This document shows, in pieces, positions 48,678-64,000 of a stretch of 64,000 nucleotides of DNA. Origin of the DNA: Streptomyces sp. Tu6071. GTDB lineage: Bacteria; Actinomycetota; Actinomycetes; Streptomycetales; Streptomycetaceae. A program made the translations under genes and the position numbers. Positions within the stretch are counted from its first letter, which is position 1. Every line of letters starts with the position of its first letter. The stretch is from NCBI RefSeq assembly GCF_000213055.1, contig NZ_CM001165.1, forward strand, positions 248,001 to 312,000, written 5' to 3'. Below the pieces are notes generated by a model. It saw only the letters and a list, made by a program, of their open reading frames with translations. It made no database searches and had not been told where the DNA came from.

Positions 48678-49658
48678 TCAGGGGGTGCGGTGCACGGCCC
48701 GGTCCTCGTCCCCGGGGGTCCGGGTCAGGCGGCTGAGGAGCGGGACGGACCGGCCCGGTGCGTCGCCGCCCGTGTCGCTCACGTGCCACAGCCGCCCGCC
48801 CCGGCGCAGCACGAGGTCCGTGCGGTGCGGGTCGTGGTCGAGCGTCGTCGCGGCGAGCGCGGTGACCGGGCCTTCGCCGGGCAGCCGGAGACCTCGGTAC
48901 GGGTCCGGGGTGCCGAGGTCGACGACGTCGATCCGCTCCGCGGCCTCGTTCCACACGTAGAGGCACGGGACGGCGCCGCGCACGACCGCCGCGCCGACGA
49001 GCCCGGCGGGGAGCGCGGTCTCGTCACCGTCCGGGGCCAGGTAGCTCCCGCCGGAGGCACCGAGGAGCGCGAGGCCCGGACGTGGGGCGTCCGGGAGGGG
49101 TACGAGGAGGACCGCGCCGGGACCGCTCGGGCGCGCGGGCGCGAGCGGCGCCGGCTCCCAGGCCAGACGGGGGTAGGCGCCCGCGTCGGCGCGGAACAGG
49201 CGCGGGCTTCCGTCCTCGGCGAGGACGGCCGTCCACAGCGTGCCGTCCGGGTTCTCGGTGAGGCTCGCCGAGCGGACGCGGCCCGCGGGGGGCGGTTCCT
49301 CGGTGGTGAAGGCGGTCTCCGGGTTCCACCGCAGACGGTGCGTGCGCGCTCCCGAGGTGGCGAGCACCTCCAGGTGGTGCGGGCCGTGCGCGCTCTGCAC
49401 CACCTGGACCCCGTCGTAGCGCCTGCCGGTGCCGAAGCGCAGGGCGCCGCTCCACTCGCCGGGCGGCGGACCTCCCGGCTCGGGGGCGTTGTGCTCCGGG
49501 TCGTTGTTGAACCAGAGCACCCAGAGTCCGTCCTCCTCGTCGCAGAGGAGGAGTTCGAGATTGCCTCGCAGTCCGTACCGGCCCTGCGCGAACGCGAGCC
49601 CGCCCCGGTTCGGGGGCGGGAGAGCGGTGCGCGGGGCGGGGGACGGGGCAGCAGCCAT
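48678..49658 (-). CDS. Orphan protein, probably a cytoplasmic beta-propeller
   Basis: 326 aa, ATG at 49658. No signal peptide. Six or more short repeats of a strand-rich unit, for example NLELLLCDEEDGLWVLWFN, HLEVLATSGARTHRLRW, SASLTENPDGTLWTAVL and TDLVLRRGGRLWHVS, suggest a six- or seven-bladed propeller or lectin-like fold. No catalytic motif recognised. It may follow the saccharopine-dehydrogenase-family gene's neighbour promoter or share the divergent region 49659-49908. Function unknown. Confidence 0.65.
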   Translation of the reverse strand: MAAAPSPAPRTALPPPNRGGLAFAQGRYGLRGNLELLLCDEEDGLWVLWFNNDPEHNAPEPGGPPPGEWSGALRFGTGRRYDGVQVVQSAHGPHHLEVLATSGARTHRLRWNPETAFTTEEPPPAGRVRSASLTENPDGTLWTAVLAEDGSPRLFRADAGAYPRLAWEPAPLAPARPSGPGAVLLVPLPDAPRPGLALLGASGGSYLAPDGDETALPAGLVGAAVVRGAVPCLYVWNEAAERIDVVDLGTPDPYRGLRLPGEGPVTALAATTLDHDPHRTDLVLRRGGRLWHVSDTGGDAPGRSVPLLSRLTRTPGDEDRAVHRTP

Positions 49659-49908: not shown

Positions 49909-50520
49909 ATGCGGGACACGGAAGGCCGCGCAACGGTCGGGACGGAGCGGCCCGCGAAGGCAGCCGAAGGCAGCACGCCGCACGTCCTCGTCGTCGGAGC
50001 CACGCGCGTGCTGCGCCCTTCGGTCCGGGCGCTCGTCGCGCGCGGCACCGCGGTCACCGCCGTCGCGCGCGACGGCCGGGCGCTCGCGAAGCTCGCGGCG
50101 GAGTGCGGGCCGCTCGTGCGCGCGCTCGCGGCCGACGCGGGGGCACCGGGCTTCGCGCGGGCGCTGCGCGACGCGGGCGGCCGCGGCGGCTTCACGGGCG
50201 CCCTGGTCTACACCCCGGCCCTCCCGGTGCCGCGCGCGAAGGACCTGCTCGGGGGTACCCGCGTGCTGATCCTGCCGAGCGCGTGGGCGGCTCCGGACGC
50301 CGCGGGCCCGTCCGGGGCGTCCGCCTGGACGCCCGACGACCTCCCGGCGGAGACGGCCGGCTCCCGGCGTCTGGTGCTCGGCTGGCACGCGGCGGCGGGC
50401 GCCTCGCGCTGGCACACGCCCGAGGAGATCTCGGCCGCCGCCCTCGCCCTCCTCGACGCACCGGCCCGCACGGACGCGGTCCTCGGCGCGGTACGCCCCT
50501 GGTCGGCCCGCCCCGCCTGA
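49909..50520 (+). CDS. Short Rossmann-like (SDR-related) protein
   Basis: 203 aa, ATG at 49909 with GTGGGAG upstream. HVLVVGATRVLRPSVRALVARG is a nucleotide-binding-type start in which the usual glycines are partly replaced. The rest is shorter than a full SDR and lacks a clear YxxxK. It ends WHTPEEISAAALALLD. Possibly a degenerate dehydrogenase or regulator-like protein. Upstream of a DeoR gene, separated by a hairpin. Confidence 0.65.
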   Translation: MRDTEGRATVGTERPAKAAEGSTPHVLVVGATRVLRPSVRALVARGTAVTAVARDGRALAKLAAECGPLVRALAADAGAPGFARALRDAGGRGGFTGALVYTPALPVPRAKDLLGGTRVLILPSAWAAPDAAGPSGASAWTPDDLPAETAGSRRLVLGWHAAAGASRWHTPEEISAAALALLDAPARTDAVLGAVRPWSARPA

Positions 50521-50707: not shown

Positions 50708-51466
50708 ATGCTGGGCGCCGAGCGAAGGAAGAGGCTGCTCCACGTGGTGCGCGCGGACGGCGTCGCACATGTGGCCACGCTCGCCGAGCGACTCGATGTC
50801 AGTCCCTCCACGATCCGCAGGGACCTCTCCGCGCTGGAGTCGCAGGGCCTGCTCAACCGCACGCACGGCGGCGCCATGGCCGAGTCGGCCGGCGCCGTGG
50901 AGGCGGACCGCCCGCAGCGGAGCGGCTTCGCCCCCTGGGAGAAGCGCGCCCTGGCGAGCGCCGCCGTGGAGCACATCGTCCCCGGCACGACCATCCTCAT
51001 CACCGGCGGGACCACGACGGCGGCGATGGTTCCGCTGCTCGCGGCCGTGGACCGGCTGACGGTCGTCACCAACTCCCTGCACCTCGCGGGCGAACTCGCC
51101 CAGCACGAGGAGATCAGCACCGTGGTGCTCGGCGGTTACCTGCGGCACCGGGAGATGTCCCTGCTCGGGCACCTGACCCGGCAGGCGCTCGAAGAACTCC
51201 ACGTCGACGAAGCCTTCGTGGGCGCCTACGGGATCACCGGCTCCGGGATAAGCGGCGCCCACGTGGACGAGGCGGAGACCGACCGCTGGCTGCTCTCGCG
51301 CGTACGGCGCATCACGGCGCTCGTCGACGGGTCGAAGTTCGGCCGCTCGGGCCCGCTCCGCGTCGCCCCCGCCACGCAGCTCTCCCGCGTGATCACGGAC
51401 TCCTCGGCGCCGGAGGAGGACGTACGGGAGCTGCGGGCGGCGGGCGTCGAGGTCATCCGGACCTGA
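50708..51466 (+). CDS. DeoR-family transcriptional regulator 1
   Basis: 252 aa, ATG at 50708. HTH_DeoR at about 5-60 (VATLAERLDVSPSTIRRDLSALESQGLLNRTHGGA). Sugar-phosphate sensor domain with ILITGGTTTAAM, VVTNSLHLAG, VVLGGYLRHREMSLLG, and DGSKFGRSG. Closely similar to DeoR 2 at 56334 (for example GLLGHL and GAHVDEAxTDR). Probable ligand of the TGAGCAATA elements. Confidence 0.9.
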   Translation: MLGAERRKRLLHVVRADGVAHVATLAERLDVSPSTIRRDLSALESQGLLNRTHGGAMAESAGAVEADRPQRSGFAPWEKRALASAAVEHIVPGTTILITGGTTTAAMVPLLAAVDRLTVVTNSLHLAGELAQHEEISTVVLGGYLRHREMSLLGHLTRQALEELHVDEAFVGAYGITGSGISGAHVDEAETDRWLLSRVRRITALVDGSKFGRSGPLRVAPATQLSRVITDSSAPEEDVRELRAAGVEVIRT

Positions 51467-51481: not shown

Positions 51482-51506
51482 GCTGAGCCGCCCCGCGGCG
51501 CTCAGC
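51482..51506. terminator. Small convergent hairpin
   Basis: GCTGAGC (51482-51488) and GCTCAGC (51500-51506), perfect 7-bp arms plus inner CGC/GCG pairing, between the converging DeoR and tautomerase-like genes and overlapping the latter's stop. Confidence 0.4.
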
Positions 51507-51831
51507 CGTGCGCGGGCGCCGTGCCCACCGACCAGCTCACCCACACCTCGCCGGGCGGGACGCCCCAGCCCTCGGCGAGCGAACGCGCCGCGGCGGCGAG
51601 CGCCGACGTCATGGCGTGCTCCCCCCTGTCGGACCCGTGCAGCACGGCGAGCGGCCACGCCCCGGCCGGGCCGTCCCCGGTCGTCGTCACGGCGGCCTCG
51701 CACAAGGTGGCCACCACTCCGGACGGCGGAAGGCCGAGCGCGTCGGCGACGGCCGTGCAGAGCGAGGTCAAACGCGCGAGATCGCGCGCGGGTTCGGTCG
51801 CGCGGGGCGCGGTCACCTGTATCACCGGCAT
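51502..51831 (-). CDS. Tautomerase-like small protein (4-OT family)
   Basis: 109 aa, ATG at 51831 with GGAGGA upstream. It begins Met-Pro (PVIQVT), leaving an N-terminal proline after Met removal as needed for 4-oxalocrotonate-tautomerase catalysis. Beta-alpha-beta pattern: PVIQVTAPRA, LTSLCTAVADALGLP, VVATLCEAAV, then a second similar unit. Longer than the 60-70 residues of classic 4-OT, closer to two-unit members. Divergent from the ABC binding-protein gene, across the TGAGCAATA element. Confidence 0.6.
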   Translation of the reverse strand: MPVIQVTAPRATEPARDLARLTSLCTAVADALGLPPSGVVATLCEAAVTTTGDGPAGAWPLAVLHGSDRGEHAMTSALAAAARSLAEGWGVPPGEVWVSWSVGTAPAHG

Positions 51832-51969
51832 GGGTGGTCCTCCTCGGAGCGGGGGCGGCAGGACACTGCCCGAGGCCGGTCACTCCCACGTCGTCGCAGG
51901 TGACGGGACATATGGACGGCAAGTGTCCGCTTGAGGCTAAGACGGTCCCCGGGCAGCGTCAAGGCAAAA

Positions 51970-52029
51970 TGAGCAATAAAAATCAGAGCCTGATTGATAT
52001 TGACCGGCCTTGGTCGCGCGGACTAGAAA
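51970..52029 (+). promoter_or_regulatory. Operator-promoter of the second ABC-sugar operon
   Basis: In the 308-nt gap 51832-52139. TGAGCAATA at 51970-51978 and TATTGACC starting at 51998 are 28 nt apart. AATCAG-AGC-CTGATT (51981-51995) is a perfect inverted repeat between them. -35 TTGACC (52000-52005) and -10 TAGAAA (52024-52029) have an 18-nt spacer. The same TGAGCAATA/TATTG layout recurs at 60241-60277. Probably bound by one of the DeoR proteins. Confidence 0.6.
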
Positions 52030-52139
52030 CAGACATTGAGGCGCCCCTCTGGCCGGATTCCTCCCGCCACCTCTCCGGCGCCTCCCCTCCCGTCCTCCCA
52101 CCGCCGAGGACTACTTCACGAATCCCGAAGGAAGTGCCC

Positions 52140-53441
52140 ATGGCAGTCGCCAGAAGAGTGGTGCTGGGCGCCGCCGTCGCCGGAGCCGGAGCCGTCGGCT
52201 TCGCCCGGCGCTCCGGCTTCTCGCCCTCCAACACGGGGGCGGGCGGGCCCGACACGCTCACGTTCTCCCTGTGGGGAAGTGACGCGGAAGTGGCCGCCTT
52301 CCGCGCCCTGGGGCGCGCCTTCGAGCGCCGCCACCAGGGCGTACGCGTACAGATCCGCCTCGAATCGTACGAGCAGATGTACGCGAACATGGACGCCCTG
52401 CTCGCGGGCGGACGGGCCCCCGACCTCTTCCGCTGCGACTACGCCAACCTCGGCATGTACAGCGCGAGCGGTCAGCTTCTCGACCTGAGCCCGTACTTCT
52501 CCCCCGCGGACCGCGCGGGCTTCCCGCCCGCCCTGTGGGAGGCCGTGTGCCACGAGGGCCGGCCCTACGCGGTGCCGCACCACACCGACACCACGGCGGT
52601 CCTCTACCGCAAGGACATGTTCCGCGAGGCGGGCATCACGAGCGTCCCCTCCACCCTGGAGGAGGCGTGGACCTGGGACGAGTTCAGCGAGATCTGCGCG
52701 CGTCTCCGCAAGAAGGTGCACGGCGTCTACCCGTTCGTGTACGGGTGGCAGCAGGTCGGCGCCTTCCGCTGGCTCACCTGGCTGTGGGAGGCGGGCGGGC
52801 GCATCCTCGACAAGGACCTCTCCGCGCCCGCGATCGAGTCCGCGGCGGGGCTGCGGGCGATGCGCTACACGCAGGACTTCTTCCGCGAGGGCTTCGTCCC
52901 GCCCAACAGCTCCGTCAAGAGCGCCGCGTACCCCGACTCGACGTTCGTCGCGGGCACCGTGGCGATGAGCTTCGCGGGGGACTTCCTGCTCCCCACGATC
53001 GACCCCGCGCTCAAGAAGGAGCTGTACGGCGTCACCTTCCAGCCGCGCGGCAGGCAAACGGCGACCGACCTCGGCGGCAACGCCGTCGCGGCGACCCGGC
53101 ACACCGACAACCCCGAACTCGCCGCCGCCTTCCTCAAGTTCCTCGTCGAGGAGGAGAACATGGCGCGCTTCTGCGAGCAGGGCGTCATGCTCCCCAGCCG
53201 CAACGCGCTCCTGAACCAGCGCCTCGACTACGCCGTCCGGCCCGATCTCATGTCCACCTACGCCGAGCAGGCGACGGCCCTCACCCCGGCGATGACGGCG
53301 CAGGTCGCCGTCCCCTCCTTCGGCCGGATCAACGCCGCCCTCCAGGACGAGCTGGAAGCCGCCTTCGTCAACCGGCAGCCGGCCGATGTCACCCTGCACC
53401 ACATCGCCGAATCCACCCGCAAAGCCCTGGCCTCCGCCTAG
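52140..53441 (+). CDS. Sugar ABC transporter solute-binding protein
   Basis: 433 aa from the ATG at 52140 (GAAGGAAG site). N-terminus MAVARRVVLGAAVAGAGAV has twin Arg and a hydrophobic core but no lipobox Cys, odd for a Gram-positive binding protein; it may be Tat-exported or anchored otherwise. Then LTFSLWGSDAEVAAFRALGRAFE, GRAPDLFRCDYANLG, YAVPHHTDTTAVLYRKDMF and GGNAVAATRHT, the family 1 fold. Feeds the permeases encoded next. Confidence 0.85.
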   Translation: MAVARRVVLGAAVAGAGAVGFARRSGFSPSNTGAGGPDTLTFSLWGSDAEVAAFRALGRAFERRHQGVRVQIRLESYEQMYANMDALLAGGRAPDLFRCDYANLGMYSASGQLLDLSPYFSPADRAGFPPALWEAVCHEGRPYAVPHHTDTTAVLYRKDMFREAGITSVPSTLEEAWTWDEFSEICARLRKKVHGVYPFVYGWQQVGAFRWLTWLWEAGGRILDKDLSAPAIESAAGLRAMRYTQDFFREGFVPPNSSVKSAAYPDSTFVAGTVAMSFAGDFLLPTIDPALKKELYGVTFQPRGRQTATDLGGNAVAATRHTDNPELAAAFLKFLVEEENMARFCEQGVMLPSRNALLNQRLDYAVRPDLMSTYAEQATALTPAMTAQVAVPSFGRINAALQDELEAAFVNRQPADVTLHHIAESTRKALASA

Positions 53442-57156: not shown

Positions 57157-58005
57157 ATGCCTCTCGTCCCCACCGCCGCCCTCGTGTCGCACGCCGTGCG
57201 CGAGTCGTCCGCCGTCCTCGCCTTCAACGTCATCACCCTCGAACACGCCGAGGCGGTGGCACGGGCCTGCGCGCGCACCGGCTCCCCCGCGCTGCTCGCC
57301 GTCAGCCAGAACGCGGTGCGCTACCACCACGACGACCCCGCCCCCCTCCTCGCCGCCTGCGCCGCCGTCGCCGAAGGGTGCGCGGCGCCGCTCGCACTCC
57401 ACCTGGACCACGTCGAGGACGAGGAACTCGCCCTGCGCGCATCCGCGTTGGGCTGCGGATCCGTCATGTTCGACGCCTCCCGCCTCCCGCACGCCGAGAA
57501 CGTCGCCCGCACGGCGGCCCTCACCGCGCGCCTGCACGCGGACGACGTCTGGGTGGAGGCGGAACTCGGTGAGATAGGCGGCAAGGACGGCGTGCACTCG
57601 GCGACCGCGCGTACCGATCCCGCCGAGGCCGCGGAGTACGTGCGCGCGACCGGCGTCGACGCCCTCGCGGTCGCCGTCGGCAGCTCGCACGCCATGACGA
57701 GCCGCACCGCCACGCTCGACCACGAGCTGATCTCCCGGCTGCGGAAGGCCGTCAACGTCCCCCTCGTCCTGCACGGCTCCTCGGGCGTGCCCGACGACGC
57801 GCTCGTCGCGGCCGTGACCGCCGGGATGCGGAAGATCAACTTCGGGACGCATCTGAACACGGCCTTCACCGGGGCCGTGCGCGCCGAACTCGGCGCGCGC
57901 GAGGGTGTGGACCCGCGCCGTTATCTCGGGGCGGGCCGCGAGGCGGTCACCGACGCGGTCGCCGCGCTCCTGCACCTGCTCGCCCCGGTCCCGGCCGCCC
58001 GGTGA
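57157..58005 (+). CDS. Class II fructose/tagatose-bisphosphate-type aldolase (GatY/KbaY-like)
   Basis: 282 aa, ATG at 57157. Zn site from the His of LHLDHVEDEEL, His in AVAVGSSHAM and His in PLVLHGSSGVP; also EAELGEIGGKDGV and GMRKINFGTHLN. Cleaves a ketose 1,6-bisphosphate or 1-phosphate into DHAP and an aldehyde. The paired GatZ-like subunit is encoded in the other cluster at 39567. Confidence 0.9.
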   Translation: MPLVPTAALVSHAVRESSAVLAFNVITLEHAEAVARACARTGSPALLAVSQNAVRYHHDDPAPLLAACAAVAEGCAAPLALHLDHVEDEELALRASALGCGSVMFDASRLPHAENVARTAALTARLHADDVWVEAELGEIGGKDGVHSATARTDPAEAAEYVRATGVDALAVAVGSSHAMTSRTATLDHELISRLRKAVNVPLVLHGSSGVPDDALVAAVTAGMRKINFGTHLNTAFTGAVRAELGAREGVDPRRYLGAGREAVTDAVAALLHLLAPVPAAR

Positions 58006-58087: not shown

Positions 58088-58384
58088 GTGATCGATCCCG
58101 TACCCGACCCCGGTGCCTACCTCACCGCGCTGCGCGCCCGCGTGCTGGAAAGGGAAGGCATTCCCATGGTCCTCGCCCTCCAAGGGGCCGCTCCGCGACC
58201 GGCGGACGCGGCCCCGGAGGCCGAGGGCGCCGAGCTGGCCGACCTGCTCCGCCACTACCGCGCGGCTCTCGCCCCCGAGGCCGACGACGACGCGGAACCC
58301 GCGCTCATCGACGTGCTCCAAGTGATGGGCGCGGCACACCTGACCCCGCGCGGCGGCGACGCCCGGAAGGAAGACCCCCGATGA
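58088..58384 (+). CDS. Small partner protein of the deacetylase-like gene
   Basis: 98 aa from the GTG at 58088 with AGGAG upstream; its stop overlaps the next ATG (ATGA). Core features: DPGAYLTALRARVLEREGIPM, then a helix LLRHYRAALAP and IDVLQVMGAAHL. The first ~100 residues of the protein encoded at 59150-60184 have the same order (DPEAALEAS...RRGVPM, EFEEFHARLAP, VIAALQALAYRHL), so it is the free form of a domain that is fused there. No signal peptide. Function unknown, probably bound to the next protein. Confidence 0.72.
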   Translation: MIDPVPDPGAYLTALRARVLEREGIPMVLALQGAAPRPADAAPEAEGAELADLLRHYRAALAPEADDDAEPALIDVLQVMGAAHLTPRGGDARKEDPR

Positions 58385-59076
58385 CCGACGCACCCTCCCG
58401 CCTGCCCTCCTTCGCCGCGCAGGAGCAGGCCCTGCGCTCCGGCCAGTACCTGCGCGTGGTCAACTACCACAACACCCCGCACGCGGACACGGAGAAGATC
58501 CGCGGCGAGCTGCAGGAACTCGCCCGCCACTTCGCCCCGGTCGGCCTGGACGACCTCGACCGCTTCCGCGCCACGGGCCGCTGGCACAAGGACCGTCCCG
58601 GCGTCATCCCCGTCTTCTACGAGGGCTACCGCAACAACGCGGAGGTGGCCGGGCCGCTCGCCGAGGAAGCCGGGCTCACCGCCTGGTTCTTCGTCTGCAC
58701 GGCCTTCCTGGACGTGCCGGTGGCCGAGCAGTACGACTACGCCAACGCCCACGACATCGATCTGGTGGAGGAGGACCGGAAGGGCGACCGGCTCGCCATG
58801 ACGTGGGACGACGTCGCCGCGCTCAGCCGCCGGCACGTGGTGACGCCGCACACGGCCTCGCACGCGGAGGCCGCTTCGCTGCGCACCGACGAGGACCTCG
58901 AACGGGAGATCTTCGCGCCGAAGCGCCGCATGGACGAGGTGACCGGCCAGAGCGCCCCCGCCACCGCCTTCCTCTGGGGCACCCCCTTCGGGGCGCACCC
59001 CCGCGTGGACGAGGCACTGCGCGAGGCGGGCTACCGCTACCAGTTCGGGAACACGATGATCCAGTACCTGGACTGA
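58381..59076 (+). CDS. Divergent polysaccharide-deacetylase-like (CE4) protein, stand-alone
   Basis: 231 aa, ATG at 58381 overlapping the small gene. Pattern follows the IcaB/PgaB-type CE4 barrel: LRVVNYHNTP, GVIPVFYEGYRNNAEVAGPLAEEAGLTAWFFVCT split across strands, and MTWDDVAALSRRHVVTPHTASH holding the His-x-x-x-His metal pair. In normal CE4 enzymes the first motif is TFDDGY; here it is VFYEGY, so the catalytic Asp is Tyr and the metal Asp is Glu. Cytoplasmic, no signal. Deacetylase activity is therefore uncertain. Confidence 0.72.
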   Translation: MTDAPSRLPSFAAQEQALRSGQYLRVVNYHNTPHADTEKIRGELQELARHFAPVGLDDLDRFRATGRWHKDRPGVIPVFYEGYRNNAEVAGPLAEEAGLTAWFFVCTAFLDVPVAEQYDYANAHDIDLVEEDRKGDRLAMTWDDVAALSRRHVVTPHTASHAEAASLRTDEDLEREIFAPKRRMDEVTGQSAPATAFLWGTPFGAHPRVDEALREAGYRYQFGNTMIQYLD

Positions 59077-59106
59077 CCGGGATGCGCGCGCCCTCGGGCG
59101 CGGACG

Positions 59107-59146
59107 ACGGAGGGGGGAGGCGGCCCGGTGCCGCCTCCCCCTCCGT
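59107..59146. terminator. Bidirectional terminator
   Basis: ACGGAGGGGGGAGGCGGC (59107-59124) with GCCGCCTCCCCCTCCGT (59130-59146), 17 pairs and one bulge, between the two converging deacetylase-like genes. A smaller hairpin (CGCGCCC/GGGCGCG, 59087-59102) precedes it. Confidence 0.7.
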
Positions 59147-59149
59147 GCG

Positions 59150-60184
59150 TCACCCCGGCAGCCGCTGCACCATGGTGTTGCCGAACACGAACCGGTACCC
59201 GGACGCGGCGACCGCCCGGTCGGCGGCGGACTCGCCCGACCAGCCGGTGCCCTCCAGCCAGGCCGTGGCGGGTGCGCTGCCCCCGGTGACGGCGTCCATC
59301 AGCCGCTTCGGCTCGCTCACCTCGCGCGCGACGTCCTCGGCGGTGAGGGTCGTACGGGCGAGGGCGTGCGAGGCCGTGTGCGGGGTGACCACGTGTCCGC
59401 GCCGGTGGAGGTCCGCTATCTCCTCCCAGGTCATGGCGAGGCGCTCACCCGGGCGGTTCTCGTCCACGAGCTTGATCCGGTGGGCCGGGGCGAAGGTGTA
59501 CTGCTCGGCCACGGGGGTGTCGACGAACCGCGTGCAGACGAAGAACCAGCCGGTGACACCGGCCTCCTCGCAGGCGGCAGCGGCGACCTCGTAGTTGTCG
59601 CGGTATCCCTCGTAGAAGACCGGCAGCAGCCCCGGCCTTTCCCCGGGCCATCGGCCCGTCGTCGCGAAGTGCTCCAGGTCGGCGACGCCGACGGTCGCGA
59701 AGTCCCGCGCGTACCCGCGCAGTTCCTCGACCAGCTCGTCCTTCCAACTGGCCGGGGTGTTGTGGTAGTTCACGACCCGGAGGTAGCGCCCGGCGCGCAG
59801 ATCGGCGGCCGTCTCCGCCGCGCTCACCCGCCCTTCCCCGGTCGGCGTCGTCCTCGCCGCGCCCGTCCCGCCGCTCCCGGCGGGCCGTCCCGGCCCGAGG
59901 TGCCGGTAGGCGAGCGCCTGCAGGGCGGCGATCACCCCCGCCTCGCCGCCTCCGGCCGCCGGGGCGAGCCGCGCGTGGAACTCCTCGAACTCGGCGGCGA
60001 GGAGTGCGTCGGTCCCGTCCTCCTCCGGCGCGGGCGCCACCGTCACGGACTGGTGCCGCCGCCCCGCCTCGCGCAGCGATACGAGCATGGGCACACCCCG
60101 CCGCGCGGCCACCAGCGAGAGGCTGGCTTCGAGGGCGGCTTCGGGATCTTGGGGCGGGACGGACGAGGCGTCAGGCAGGGACAT
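59150..60184 (-). CDS. Fused small domain plus deacetylase-like protein
   Basis: 344 aa from the ATG at 60184. Residues 1-105 are homologous to the 98-aa protein at 58088; residues about 120-344 to the protein at 58381 (same VVNYHNTP, VFYEGYRDN, WFFVCTRFVDTPVAEQY, HVVTPHTASH, FGNTMVQ). A Gly/Ala-rich linker joins them. Within it an in-frame GTG at 59827 lies behind GGGGAAGGG, as if a start site of a once separate gene survived. Promoter region carries the TGAGCAATA element at 60241. Confidence 0.75.
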   Translation of the reverse strand: MSLPDASSVPPQDPEAALEASLSLVAARRGVPMLVSLREAGRRHQSVTVAPAPEEDGTDALLAAEFEEFHARLAPAAGGGEAGVIAALQALAYRHLGPGRPAGSGGTGAARTTPTGEGRVSAAETAADLRAGRYLRVVNYHNTPASWKDELVEELRGYARDFATVGVADLEHFATTGRWPGERPGLLPVFYEGYRDNYEVAAAACEEAGVTGWFFVCTRFVDTPVAEQYTFAPAHRIKLVDENRPGERLAMTWEEIADLHRRGHVVTPHTASHALARTTLTAEDVAREVSEPKRLMDAVTGGSAPATAWLEGTGWSGESAADRAVAASGYRFVFGNTMVQRLPG

Positions 60185-60461: not shown

Positions 60462-60767
60462 TCACCAGGAGGACTTGGTCACTCCCGGCAGGAAGCCCGC
60501 GTGCGCCTGTTCGCGGACGCGGACGCGGGAGAGGCCGAACTTGCGCAGGTGGCCCCTGGGCCGGCCGTCCACGCTGTCGCGGTTGCGGACGCGCGTCGCG
60601 CTGGCGTCGCGCGGCTGGCGGCGCAGCTCGCGCAGGGCGGCGCTCCTCTCGTCCTCGCCGGAGTCCGGACGGCGCAGGATCTCCTTCAGTTCGGCCCGGC
60701 GGGCGGCGTAGCGCGCGACGGTCGCGCGGCGCTCGTCGTTCTTGGCGATCTTGCTCTTCTTGGCCAT
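60462..60767 (-). CDS. rpsN: 30S ribosomal protein S14, zinc-independent form
   Basis: 101 aa from the ATG at 60767 ([14 protein letters not shown]). The long form without the CxxC...CxxC zinc site of the 61-aa form. The start overlaps the L28 stop by one base (TGATG). Replaces the zinc form when zinc is scarce. Confidence 0.93.
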
Positions 60768-61003
60768 CAGACGCGGTTCCCCCGGGCGCGGACGCGGGCG
60801 ACGGCGGCTTCGACGCCGATGGCGTCGACCGTCTTGATCCCCTTGGCGCTCAGCACCAGCCGGACGTACCGGCCCTCGCTGGGGAGCCAGTACCTCTTGC
60901 GCTGGATGTTCGGGTCGAAGCGGCGCGAGGTGCGCCGGTGCGAGTTGGACACCCTGTTGCCGAAAGCGGGCTTGCTTCCGGTGAGTTGACAGTGTGCGGA
61001 CAT
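60767..61003 (-). CDS. rpmB: 50S ribosomal protein L28, C-minus form
   Basis: 78 aa, ATG at 61003. [28 protein letters not shown]. Usual L28 has CxxC in this place; here only one Cys, so zinc is not held. Confidence 0.93.
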
Positions 61004-61042
61004 GAACGTGTCTCTCCTTGCGGGGCACGGGACCCCTTTCGG

Positions 61043-61063
61043 TAATGAAAATCGTTGTCGTAT
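61043..61063. promoter_or_regulatory. Zur-box-like site between rpmB and rpmG
   Basis: TAATGAAAATCGTTGTCGTAT, similar to the TGAAAATnATTTTCA core of streptomycete Zur boxes, in the 70-nt divergent gap and able to control both sides. Confidence 0.65.
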
Positions 61064-61073
61064 GCTACCTCCC

Positions 61074-61238
61074 ATGGCACGCGACGAACTACGCCCGATC
61101 GTCAAACTCCGGCCCACCGCCGGTACCGGATACACCTGTGTGACGCGCAAGAACCGGCGGAACGACCCCGACCGCCTCGTGCTGCGCACGTACGAGCCGC
61201 TCCTGCGCCGGCACGTCGACTTCCGCGAGGAACGCTGA
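61074..61238 (+). CDS. rpmG: 50S ribosomal protein L33, C-minus form
   Basis: 54 aa from the ATG at 61074 ([20 protein letters not shown]). Only one Cys (TCVTRKN), so the four-Cys zinc site is absent. The longer frame from 61002 would cross the Zur box and is not preferred. Divergent from rpmB. Confidence 0.92.
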
Positions 61239-61310
61239 CGGTCCCCCGTTCTCCGCATCCCGCCCGCGCGCACCTCGCGGGCACACGTCCGCGAGGGGAA
61301 GTCGACTTCT

Positions 61311-61739
61311 GTGTACGGAACATCGCGCCGGGAGACACGCTCCACGCGCCAGCGCGCCGCGGTGCTCGGCGCGCTGCGCGCGGCGGACGGCTTCGTCTCC
61401 GCCCCGGCGCTCCACGGTCTCCTCGCCACCGGCGGGGCGGCCGTGGGGCTCACCACGGTCTACCGGACGCTGCGGCTCTTCGAGGAGACGGGCCGCGTGG
61501 ACGTGACACGCGACGACTCCGGGGGCCGCCTCTACCGGTGGCGGCCCCCCGGGGAGCACCGGCACTACCTCGTCTGCCGCGCGTGCGGCGCGAGCCTCGC
61601 GGTGAACGCCGAGGTGGTCGAGCGGTGGGTGGCCAAGGTGATGCGGGAGAGCGGCTACCGCGCCGTGGCGCACACCCTGGAGCTGAGCGGGGTGTGCGAC
61701 AGGTGCCCGGAGGAGCACGGGCCGGGGACGGCCACCTGA
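61311..61739 (+). CDS. zur: Fur-family zinc repressor, Zur-type
   Basis: 142 aa, GTG at 61311 with GAGGGGAAG upstream. Winged helix ([19 protein letters not shown]), [11 protein letters not shown] and GVCDRCPEE supplying the two CxxC structural-zinc pairs. Assigned to Zur rather than Fur because it lies among C-minus ribosomal and znu genes. Confidence 0.82.
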
Positions 61740-61785
61740 CGGTACGGGGCGGCGGTTCGGTCCGTACGGCGTACCGCCGCGCGCA

Positions 61786-61828
61786 CGCCCTGGGCGGGCC
61801 GGACACGTCGTCCGGCCCGCCCAGGGCG
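61786..61828. terminator. Terminator between zur and znuB
   Basis: Perfect 19-bp stem: CGCCCTGGGCGGGCCGGAC (61786-61804) with 61810-61828, loop ACGTC, in the convergent gap, then CTTTC. Confidence 0.75.
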
Positions 61829-61862
61829 CTTTCCGGCGCTCCCGCGGGGGTGCGTGACCGGC

Positions 61863-62771
61863 CTACCGCCCGGCGAGGGCGGATTCGGCGGGGGCCGCGT
61901 CCGTGGGAGCCGGTGTGCGCCGCTTGTCGCCCGTGCGCAGGCGGGCGGCGAAGCGGCAGCAGACGTAGATCGCGAAGGAGAGCGTCGTGACGTACGGGCT
62001 GATGGGGACACTGCTGCCGAGGGCGAGGAGGATGCCGCCCTCGACCGACAGGACGGCGAAGGCGACGCTCAGCAGCGGCAGCAGGACGGGGGAACTGGTG
62101 ATCCGGGCGGCGGCGGCAGCGGGGGTGACGATCAGGGTCAGGACCAGCAGGGCGCCCACCACCTGCACCGACAGCGCGACCGCGAGGCCCAGGATCAGCA
62201 TGAAGGCCAGGGACAGGGAGCGGACCGGCAGGCCGCGCGCCTCGGCGACCTCGGGGTCGGCGCTGGCGAAGGTGAGGGGGCGCCAGACCACCGCGAGGGC
62301 GAGCAGGACGACGGCGGAGGTGCCGAGCAGCCATGCCGTCTGCGGCGTGTCCACGGCGACGATCTGCCCCGTCAGCAGCCCGAACTTGTTCGCCGCGCGA
62401 CCCTTGTAGAGCGCGAGGAAGAGGACGCCGAGGCCGAGCCCGAACGGCATGAGGATGCCGATCGCCGAGTTCCGGTCCCTGGCCCGCGCGCCCAGGACAC
62501 CGATGACCGCCGCCGCGACGAGCGAGCCGAGGAGGGAACCGGCGACGACGTTGACCCCGAACAGCAGCGCGGCGGAGGCCCCGGCGAAGGACAGCTCGCT
62601 GATGCCGTGCACCGCGAAGGGCAGGTCGCGCATGATGACGAAGACTCCCACGAGCCCGCCGACGAGGCCGAGGGCCGCCCCGACGATCAGTGAGTTGCGG
62701 ACGAGGCCGAGGAGTTCCCCGTAGTTGTCGTAGGCGAAGAGCTGGTGCCAGACGCCGTCTGCGAGGTTCAT
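61863..62771 (-). CDS. znuB: Zinc ABC transporter permease ZnuB
   Basis: 302 aa from the ATG at 62771 (ATGA overlap with znuC). About eight helices, ABC-3 family signatures HGISELSFAGASAALL and ALSVQVVGALLVLTLIVTPAAAA. Confidence 0.9.
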   Translation of the reverse strand: MNLADGVWHQLFAYDNYGELLGLVRNSLIVGAALGLVGGLVGVFVIMRDLPFAVHGISELSFAGASAALLFGVNVVAGSLLGSLVAAAVIGVLGARARDRNSAIGILMPFGLGLGVLFLALYKGRAANKFGLLTGQIVAVDTPQTAWLLGTSAVVLLALAVVWRPLTFASADPEVAEARGLPVRSLSLAFMLILGLAVALSVQVVGALLVLTLIVTPAAAAARITSSPVLLPLLSVAFAVLSVEGGILLALGSSVPISPYVTTLSFAIYVCCRFAARLRTGDKRRTPAPTDAAPAESALAGR

Positions 62772-63691
62772 CGGCGGACTCCGAGGTGCGGGTGGGGTTC
62801 CTCGGGGTGGTGGGCCGGTTCCTCGTACGCGCCGGCGACCACGACCCGGCCCCCGACCCGTACGACGTCGACGTGCGTGCCGTACAGGCGCGAGAGCGAG
62901 GCGGAGGTGAGGACCTCCTCGGGGGTGCCGGTGCGGTGCGCGCCGGGGGCGAGGTAGAGGACGCGGTCCACGAGGTCGAGGACGGGATTGATCTCGTGGG
63001 TGACGAAAACGACTCCGGTGCCGTGCGAGCCGCGGCGGGCGTCGATGAGTTCGGTGACGGCCCGCTGGTGGTGCGGGTCGAGCGAGACGAGCGGTTCGTC
63101 GCACAGCAGGAGGCGCGGGTCCGTGGCGAGGGCCTGGGCGACCCGTACCCGCTGGCGTTCCCCGCCGGAGAGTTCACCGAGGGGGGCGTCCGCGTAGGCC
63201 GAGGCGCCGACGGAGGCGAGGAGTGCGTCCACGCGTGCGCGGTCGGCCCGGCCGGGGCGGCGTGGGCCGAAGCGGTGGCCGTCGACGCCGAAGCGGACGA
63301 GGTCGCGGGCGCGGACCGGGGTCTGGGCGGAGATGCTCGCCTGCTGGGGGATGTAGCCGAGGTGGCGGTTGGCGCGGTGCGCGGGCTCGCCGAGGACGGT
63401 CAGGGTCCCGGCGGACAGGGGCTGCCTGCCGAGCAGGGCCCGCAGCAGGCTCGTCTTGCCCGCGCCGTTGGGGCCGAGCACGGCGAGGAACTCGCCCGGC
63501 CGGACGTCGAGTTCGAGGTCCTGCCAGACGGTGCGCCGACCGTGGGCGACGGCGCCGCCGCGCATGCTGAGCAGCGCGGCGGCGGCCTCGGCGGAACGGC
63601 TTGCGGACGTCCCGGCGGCCTGCCCGCTCGCGGCCGTGTCCGTCGTTCCGGCCCCGTTCCGGGGTTTCGGGATCATCGCTGCGCCGCTCAC
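62768..63691 (-). CDS. znuC: Zinc ABC transporter ATP-binding protein ZnuC
   Basis: 307 aa from the GTG at 63691 (GTGA overlap with znuA). Walker A GPNGAGKT, LSGGERQR, Walker B LLLCDEPLVSLD, VTHEINP. About 50-residue Ala-rich N-terminus before the ATPase; C-terminal His-rich end (EEPAHHPEEPHPHLG) that may bind zinc. Confidence 0.9.
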   Translation of the reverse strand: MSGAAMIPKPRNGAGTTDTAASGQAAGTSASRSAEAAAALLSMRGGAVAHGRRTVWQDLELDVRPGEFLAVLGPNGAGKTSLLRALLGRQPLSAGTLTVLGEPAHRANRHLGYIPQQASISAQTPVRARDLVRFGVDGHRFGPRRPGRADRARVDALLASVGASAYADAPLGELSGGERQRVRVAQALATDPRLLLCDEPLVSLDPHHQRAVTELIDARRGSHGTGVVFVTHEINPVLDLVDRVLYLAPGAHRTGTPEEVLTSASLSRLYGTHVDVVRVGGRVVVAGAYEEPAHHPEEPHPHLGVRR

Positions 63692-64000
63692 TTGCCGAGC
63701 GCGTCGGCGAGGGAGTCGAGGGTCGCACCCATCCACGCGAGGTAGTCCTTGCCCCGCGGCAGGGTCTCGGTGACGGGCACCTCGGGCACCCCGGCGCTCT
63801 TCGCCGCGTCCGCGACCTTCTCGGTCTGCGGCCCGGAGGTCTGGGAGTTGTAGACGAGCGCCTTGACCTTCTTGTCCTTGTAGAGCGCGAGGGTCTCCTG
63901 GAGCACCTTCGGGGAGACGTCGTCGCCCTCCTCGATGGCCTCGCTGAAGTCCTCGGGCGTCTTGTTGACGAGCCCGGCGGCCTCGGTCATGTAGAGGGGC
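63688..64000 (-). CDS. znuA: Zinc ABC transporter solute-binding protein ZnuA (5' part beyond window)
   Basis: Last 103 residues before the stop, open to the window end. VKALVYNSQTSGPQTEKVADAAKSAGVPEVPVTETLPRG and YLAWMGATLDSLADALGK are the C-terminal lobe of cluster A-I metal-binding proteins. First gene of the znuACB operon. Confidence 0.85.
   Translation of the reverse strand, partial: PLYMTEAAGLVNKTPEDFSEAIEEGDDVSPKVLQETLALYKDKKVKALVYNSQTSGPQTEKVADAAKSAGVPEVPVTETLPRGKDYLAWMGATLDSLADALGK

Follow-up and report, generated by a model that had tools for sequence, protein, structure and literature searches.

A putative two-part CE4-like enzyme encoded in split and fused forms in Streptomyces sp. 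Tu6071

A 64,000-nucleotide stretch of Streptomyces sp. Tu6071 DNA (contig NZ_CM001165.1, positions 248,001–312,000; hereafter the window) carries a small gene that overlaps a gene for a CE4-like protein, and next to them a converging gene that holds both parts in one chain. The coordinates, lengths, overlap and convergent orientation of the three genes are exactly those given in the original prediction, a note made from the letters of the window, and every motif that it listed is present. The genes are as follows.

58088–58384, + strand: predicted small subunit, 98 residues (P0001); GTG start; motif R-x-L-E-R-E-G-I-P-M
58381–59076, + strand: predicted CE4-like (NodB2-type) subunit, 231 residues (P0002); PF01522, 24.5 bits against a cut-off of 23.1; H30, Y80, E81, H157 and H161
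59150–60184, − strand: fused paralogue, 344 residues (P0003); small domain ~10–100, a linker, and CE4-like domain ~129–344; PF01522, 32 bits

By eye, an AGGAG ribosome site precedes the GTG start of the 98-residue gene, whose end overlaps the start of the 231-residue gene by the four nucleotides ATGA; 73 bp separate the facing ends of the latter and the convergent gene. The small protein matched no family in searches of the Pfam and NCBIfam libraries. We predict from sequence and structural modelling, with a probability of roughly 0.65, that the 98- and 231-residue proteins together make up a two-subunit enzyme, of which the 344-residue protein is a fused paralogue. Since the two genes are nearly always found together or fused in the actinobacteria examined, the pair probably functions as a single two-part enzyme that helps to break down an imported sugar.

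Split and fused forms and their genomic pairing

The large parts of the split and fused proteins are 60% identical over 214 residues (E=7e-85), and the small parts just 36% over 50 residues (E=7e-4, a single comparison). A profile built from 18 stand-alone small proteins, with 1,020 shuffled sequences as controls, gives at least 31 of 34 long homologues a score above that of the best shuffle (lowest 17.9 bits versus 9.4); the remaining long proteins, P0022, P0098 and P0115, are not among the 44 profile matches listed. The identity of the large parts and the small-domain scores together bear out the earlier proposal that the 344-residue protein contains both halves. Both split genes are under purifying selection: relative to Streptomyces SID11385, dN/dS (NG86) is 0.20 for the small gene, 0.14 for the large gene and 0.27 for the fused gene. 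The small domain of the fused gene is less constrained, because the ratio reaches 0.45 over its first 100 codons.

A locus scan of one genome per species returned 35 loci, to which an Arthrobacter plasmid was added. Because it used two peptide patterns, PVFYEGYR and G[ILV][TV][GA]WF[FPA][VI]C, the scan is biased to typical members; neither pattern touches the small domain. Of the 44 CE4-like domains found across the window and the scanned loci, 35 are immediately preceded by the small gene on the same strand, with an exact 4-nt overlap in 25 of these split pairs, and seven have the small domain fused. The other two, the first copies in loci L027 and L032, carry an N-terminal extension that by eye resembles a worn small domain and gives no profile match. 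A survey of 394 actinomycete genomes, the source genome included, agrees: the large protein is found at E≤1e-15 in nine genomes (11 places), and the small domain at E≤1e-11 in the identical nine (10 places). The place that lacks a small-domain match (L048/L068) encodes a 349-residue protein with a long N-terminal extension, and two more genomes have weak small-domain matches (1.1e-4 and 7.4e-4) and no large protein. Genomic pairing of the small and CE4-like genes is thus near-obligate in the actinobacteria examined; the search of other genomes that the original prediction had proposed finds the two neighbouring or fused in 42 of 44 cases, and both present in the same nine of 394 genomes.

Fused forms do not share a single position in the tree. 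Those of Streptomyces form one clade (support 100/100), and those of Quadrisphaera and ‘Streptomyces sp. NP160’ branch elsewhere as a modestly supported group (94/52). A tree constrained to unite all 20 fused rows in one clade is rejected (p-AU 0.026; the 20 include two, the first copies in L027 and L032, that were classed as fused by eye), so there was probably more than one fusion event. In the window and in L001–L004, a fused and a split form lie close together, ~2.2 kb apart in L004; L027 and L032 have the two in tandem, provided that their worn N-terminus is taken as a fused small domain. Two loci, L033 and L035, are both titled Streptomyces sp. NP160, a label that may be wrong; L033 clusters with the Quadrisphaera-type fused copies and L035 lies near them.

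In a confident AlphaFold2 model of the natural fusion (pLDDT 91.7, pTM 0.92), the small domain is set firmly against the large domain with strand pairing between them, and the sole strand of the small domain must, in this model, pair with the large domain. Genomic pairing and model together support the earlier suggestion that a fusion of these neighbours points to a complex. Proteins from adjacent operon genes frequently do not bind one another, and the two proteins could simply be operon mates that act apart, their fusion being incidental. We regard this as very improbable, since fusion is seen in more than one clade and the small domain packs firmly on the large one in the model. In addition, the two domains remain together in L027, L032, L033 and L071, where the sugar-import operon described below was not found; no operon gene besides the CE4-like one matched in the first three, and L068 and L071 likewise lie outside it.

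Fold and active site of the large subunit

The large domain has a NodB2 barrel fold and matches PplD, PgaB and IcaB; entries for BA3943 and BA0150 are also among its fold matches. The PplD study describes H105 as the catalytic His, D167 as the Asp that coordinates the catalytic water and is held by R302, and D168, H223 and H227 as the zinc ligands (PMC8807736). By motif order, H105, D167, D168, H223 and H227 correspond to H30, Y80, E81, H157 and H161 of P0002; R302 has no counterpart, because the P0002 chain stops opposite PplD residue 299. Aligned by profile with eight canonical NodB2-like sequences (E=1.8e-17), the family has FYEG opposite FDDG, and the alignment ends at GYR. Beyond the aligned end, 158 of 184 family members have a tail of 11–13 residues, versus 57–76 in the canonical proteins, so the segment bearing the Asp-holding Arg is absent.

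Replacement of the catalytic Asp extends across the family. The MT1 motif of 180 CE4-like sequences, some proteins being counted twice, reads YEG in 177, YDS in L069, YDG in L071 and, by eye, FDG in L068. In 63 further sequences it reads YEG in 62 and FEG in one (P0198); 61 of the 62 fit the position pattern, and the last carries the letters YEG elsewhere in its own context. The Asp therefore occurs in none of the 243 sequences counted, which have Tyr in 241 and Phe in two (L068 and P0198), L068 and one pattern miss having been settled by eye or by a printed YEG check. The metal-ligand positions are largely kept: both ligand His residues (HTxxH) are present in 180/180 and 63/63 sequences, and the acidic ligand is Glu except for Asp in L068, L069 and L071. 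The MT5 His in the first strand (VLMYH) is also kept, with N-x-H-x-T in 177 of 180 sequences and no pattern match in the other three. The two protein searches cover the best 120 of 169 and the best 120 of 512 matches, so more distant forms may be unseen.

The catalytic Asp and the Arg thus seem to have been lost together and, to judge from these residues, the large protein is no ordinary deacetylase. It differs from the NodB2-type CE4 de-N-acetylases PplD, PgaB, IcaB and BpsB in having Tyr or Phe for the catalytic Asp and mostly Glu for the metal Asp, in lacking the C-terminal segment with the Asp-holding Arg, and in having an obligate small partner. It also lies in a sugar-import operon, whereas theirs are cell-surface polymer genes; no signal or membrane segment was seen by eye.

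One alternative keeps the complex and makes its large subunit a pseudoenzyme, that is, a sugar-binding sensor, chaperone or operon regulator without catalysis. The Asp replaced in 243 of 243 sequences and the missing Arg-bearing segment would fit, and CE4 pseudoenzymes exist: BA0150, so termed in the literature, and BA3943, both Bacillus proteins among the fold matches, likewise combine the CE4 fold with altered active-site residues. However, a protein that only binds would not need the metal ligands and MT5 His that are kept almost everywhere, and the operon already has a DeoR regulator; we consider a pseudoenzyme distinctly unlikely.

In the favoured two-subunit enzyme, the chains would form a stable complex with a metal site and catalytic activity, and the small subunit may stabilise or complete the shortened barrel. 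Such a complex would work in the cytoplasm and depend on a metal; its most likely activity is hydrolysis of an imported sugar or sugar-phosphate derivative, in which the MT5 His would serve as base and as acid. The PplD authors propose that role for its MT5 His (PMC8807736), and a barrel without the Asp might therefore still work. More tentatively, and at somewhat below even odds, the pair may be a natural split barrel. The large subunit would be a NodB2 barrel minus its last strand-helix unit and the Asp/Arg pair; the small protein would supply a replacement strand in trans (N-terminally in the fusions). The product would be an enzyme of two chains and eight strands, its new active site made of Tyr plus Glu-His-His, that serves an undescribed sugar pathway. 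Completion of the barrel by the small chain, if real, would make the pair a naturally occurring example of strand complementation in a TIM-like enzyme.

Several observations weigh against a two-subunit metal enzyme. First, no match to the small-domain profile is found for three CE4-like copies (the first ones in L027 and L032, and L068). Second, standard CE4 deacetylation is doubtful, because the PplD D167N mutant, altered at the position of the Tyr here, is inactive (PMC8807736); the chemistry of the CE4-like subunit must then differ in detail. Third, the Tyr itself is not universal, given the Phe in L068 and P0198. Fourth, some loci, such as L070, have the pair without SIS, kinase or aldolase genes.

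The sugar-uptake operon and candidate reactions

Upstream of the split pair, the window contains six genes on the same strand.

51834–53441, + strand: sugar ABC (ATP-binding cassette) transporter solute-binding protein (start uncertain), PF01547
53466–54419, + strand: sugar ABC transporter permease, PF00528
54471–55328, + strand: sugar ABC transporter permease, PF00528
55325–56344, + strand: D-2-hydroxyacid-dehydrogenase-like protein, PF02826, 176.5 bits
56334–57107, + strand: DeoR-type regulator (start uncertain); top NCBIfam match AgaR, under the cut-off
57157–58005, + strand: class II aldolase (F_bP_aldolase), an operon mate and conserved neighbour across loci

Across 38 sources (37 loci, including L037, which is not a member, plus the window), the importer binding protein and permeases are each found in 33, the D-2-hydroxyacid dehydrogenase in 31, DeoR in 27, the class II aldolase in 26, SIS in 23, PfkB kinase in 21, GH4 in 20, 1-PFK type and IlvD/Edd in 19 each and FAH in 17; these counts are rough, because a simple gene caller was used on loci of unequal length. 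In most cases the pair is part of a conserved operon for sugar uptake, whose core is the importer, dehydrogenase, DeoR, small and CE4-like genes; the SIS, kinase and aldolase genes and the GH4 and IlvD genes are variable.

Many loci resemble Aga (N-acetylgalactosamine) operons in joining the pair with SIS, PfkB kinase, tagatose-6-phosphate-kinase-like, class II aldolase and AgaR-like genes; they differ in that others, L070 among them, lack the SIS, kinase and aldolase genes. The Aga/Tag equivalog cut-offs are not reached (AgaR 174.4 against 260, tagatose-6-phosphate kinase 168.8 against 409.55, agaS 21.3 against 529.2), and the general hexose-kinase subfamily cut-off alone is passed, by one protein (265.9 versus 216.4). 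The usual deacetylase of the Aga pathway is an amidohydrolase, unlike the CE4-like protein.

As a first guess, and a doubtful one, the enzyme could strip an N-acetyl or another acyl group from its substrate before the SIS, kinase and aldolase steps. Such a step before SIS and the kinases would fit an amino-sugar-like module; it misfits the loci that lack the module. The same complex might instead use its barrel for a different kind of chemistry, for example isomerisation, epimerisation or lactone hydrolysis. The absence of the Asp/Arg pair argues for altered chemistry, and in many loci the neighbouring GH4, IlvD/Edd, FAH and dehydrogenase genes suggest steps on sugar acids. However, an acyl-amino sugar fits the SIS and kinase modules equally well, and we know of no CE4-fold protein with any of these three activities, so we judge this alternative improbable. 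Of these readings, we place the two-subunit metal enzyme at the top, followed by different chemistry on the barrel and a pseudoenzyme, with unrelated operon mates last.

Databases label members of the CE4-like family ‘polysaccharide deacetylase’. If the pair is one enzyme, this label misleads, a small family so far without a name acquires a role, and there is a candidate for the missing step of a recurring actinobacterial sugar-uptake operon.

Other genes near the pair or its relatives were noted. The 7.5-Mb source genome has a second, distant cluster of SIS, class II aldolase and DeoR genes at ~7.34 Mb (L067, 8305–11022). In L069 (13649–15624), the SIS gene is followed by genes that by eye are acetaldehyde dehydrogenase- and 4-hydroxy-2-oxovalerate aldolase-like, hinting at a pyruvate-forming pathway branch. 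Upstream of the operon in the window is a second DeoR-type regulator (50708–51466, + strand), ~45% identical to relatives of the first. A 109-residue protein that starts Met-Pro (51502–51831, − strand) belongs to a family that occurs in 19 of the 38 sources, often beside a SIS or kinase gene; it looks tautomerase-like and has no Pfam family above the cut-off. A 326-residue protein without a Pfam match (48678–49658, − strand) belongs to a family found in 19 of the 38 sources, often just past the CE4-like gene. A protein of ~200 residues (49909–50520, + strand) has family members in 24 of the 38 and, by eye, a short Rossmann/SDR-like (short-chain dehydrogenase/reductase) start; its relative in L012 has no Pfam match. 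The region past the fused gene, at 60462–63990, recalls zinc-responsive clusters: by eye, it combines small ribosomal-protein-like genes with those of a Fur-like regulator and a metal ABC transporter.
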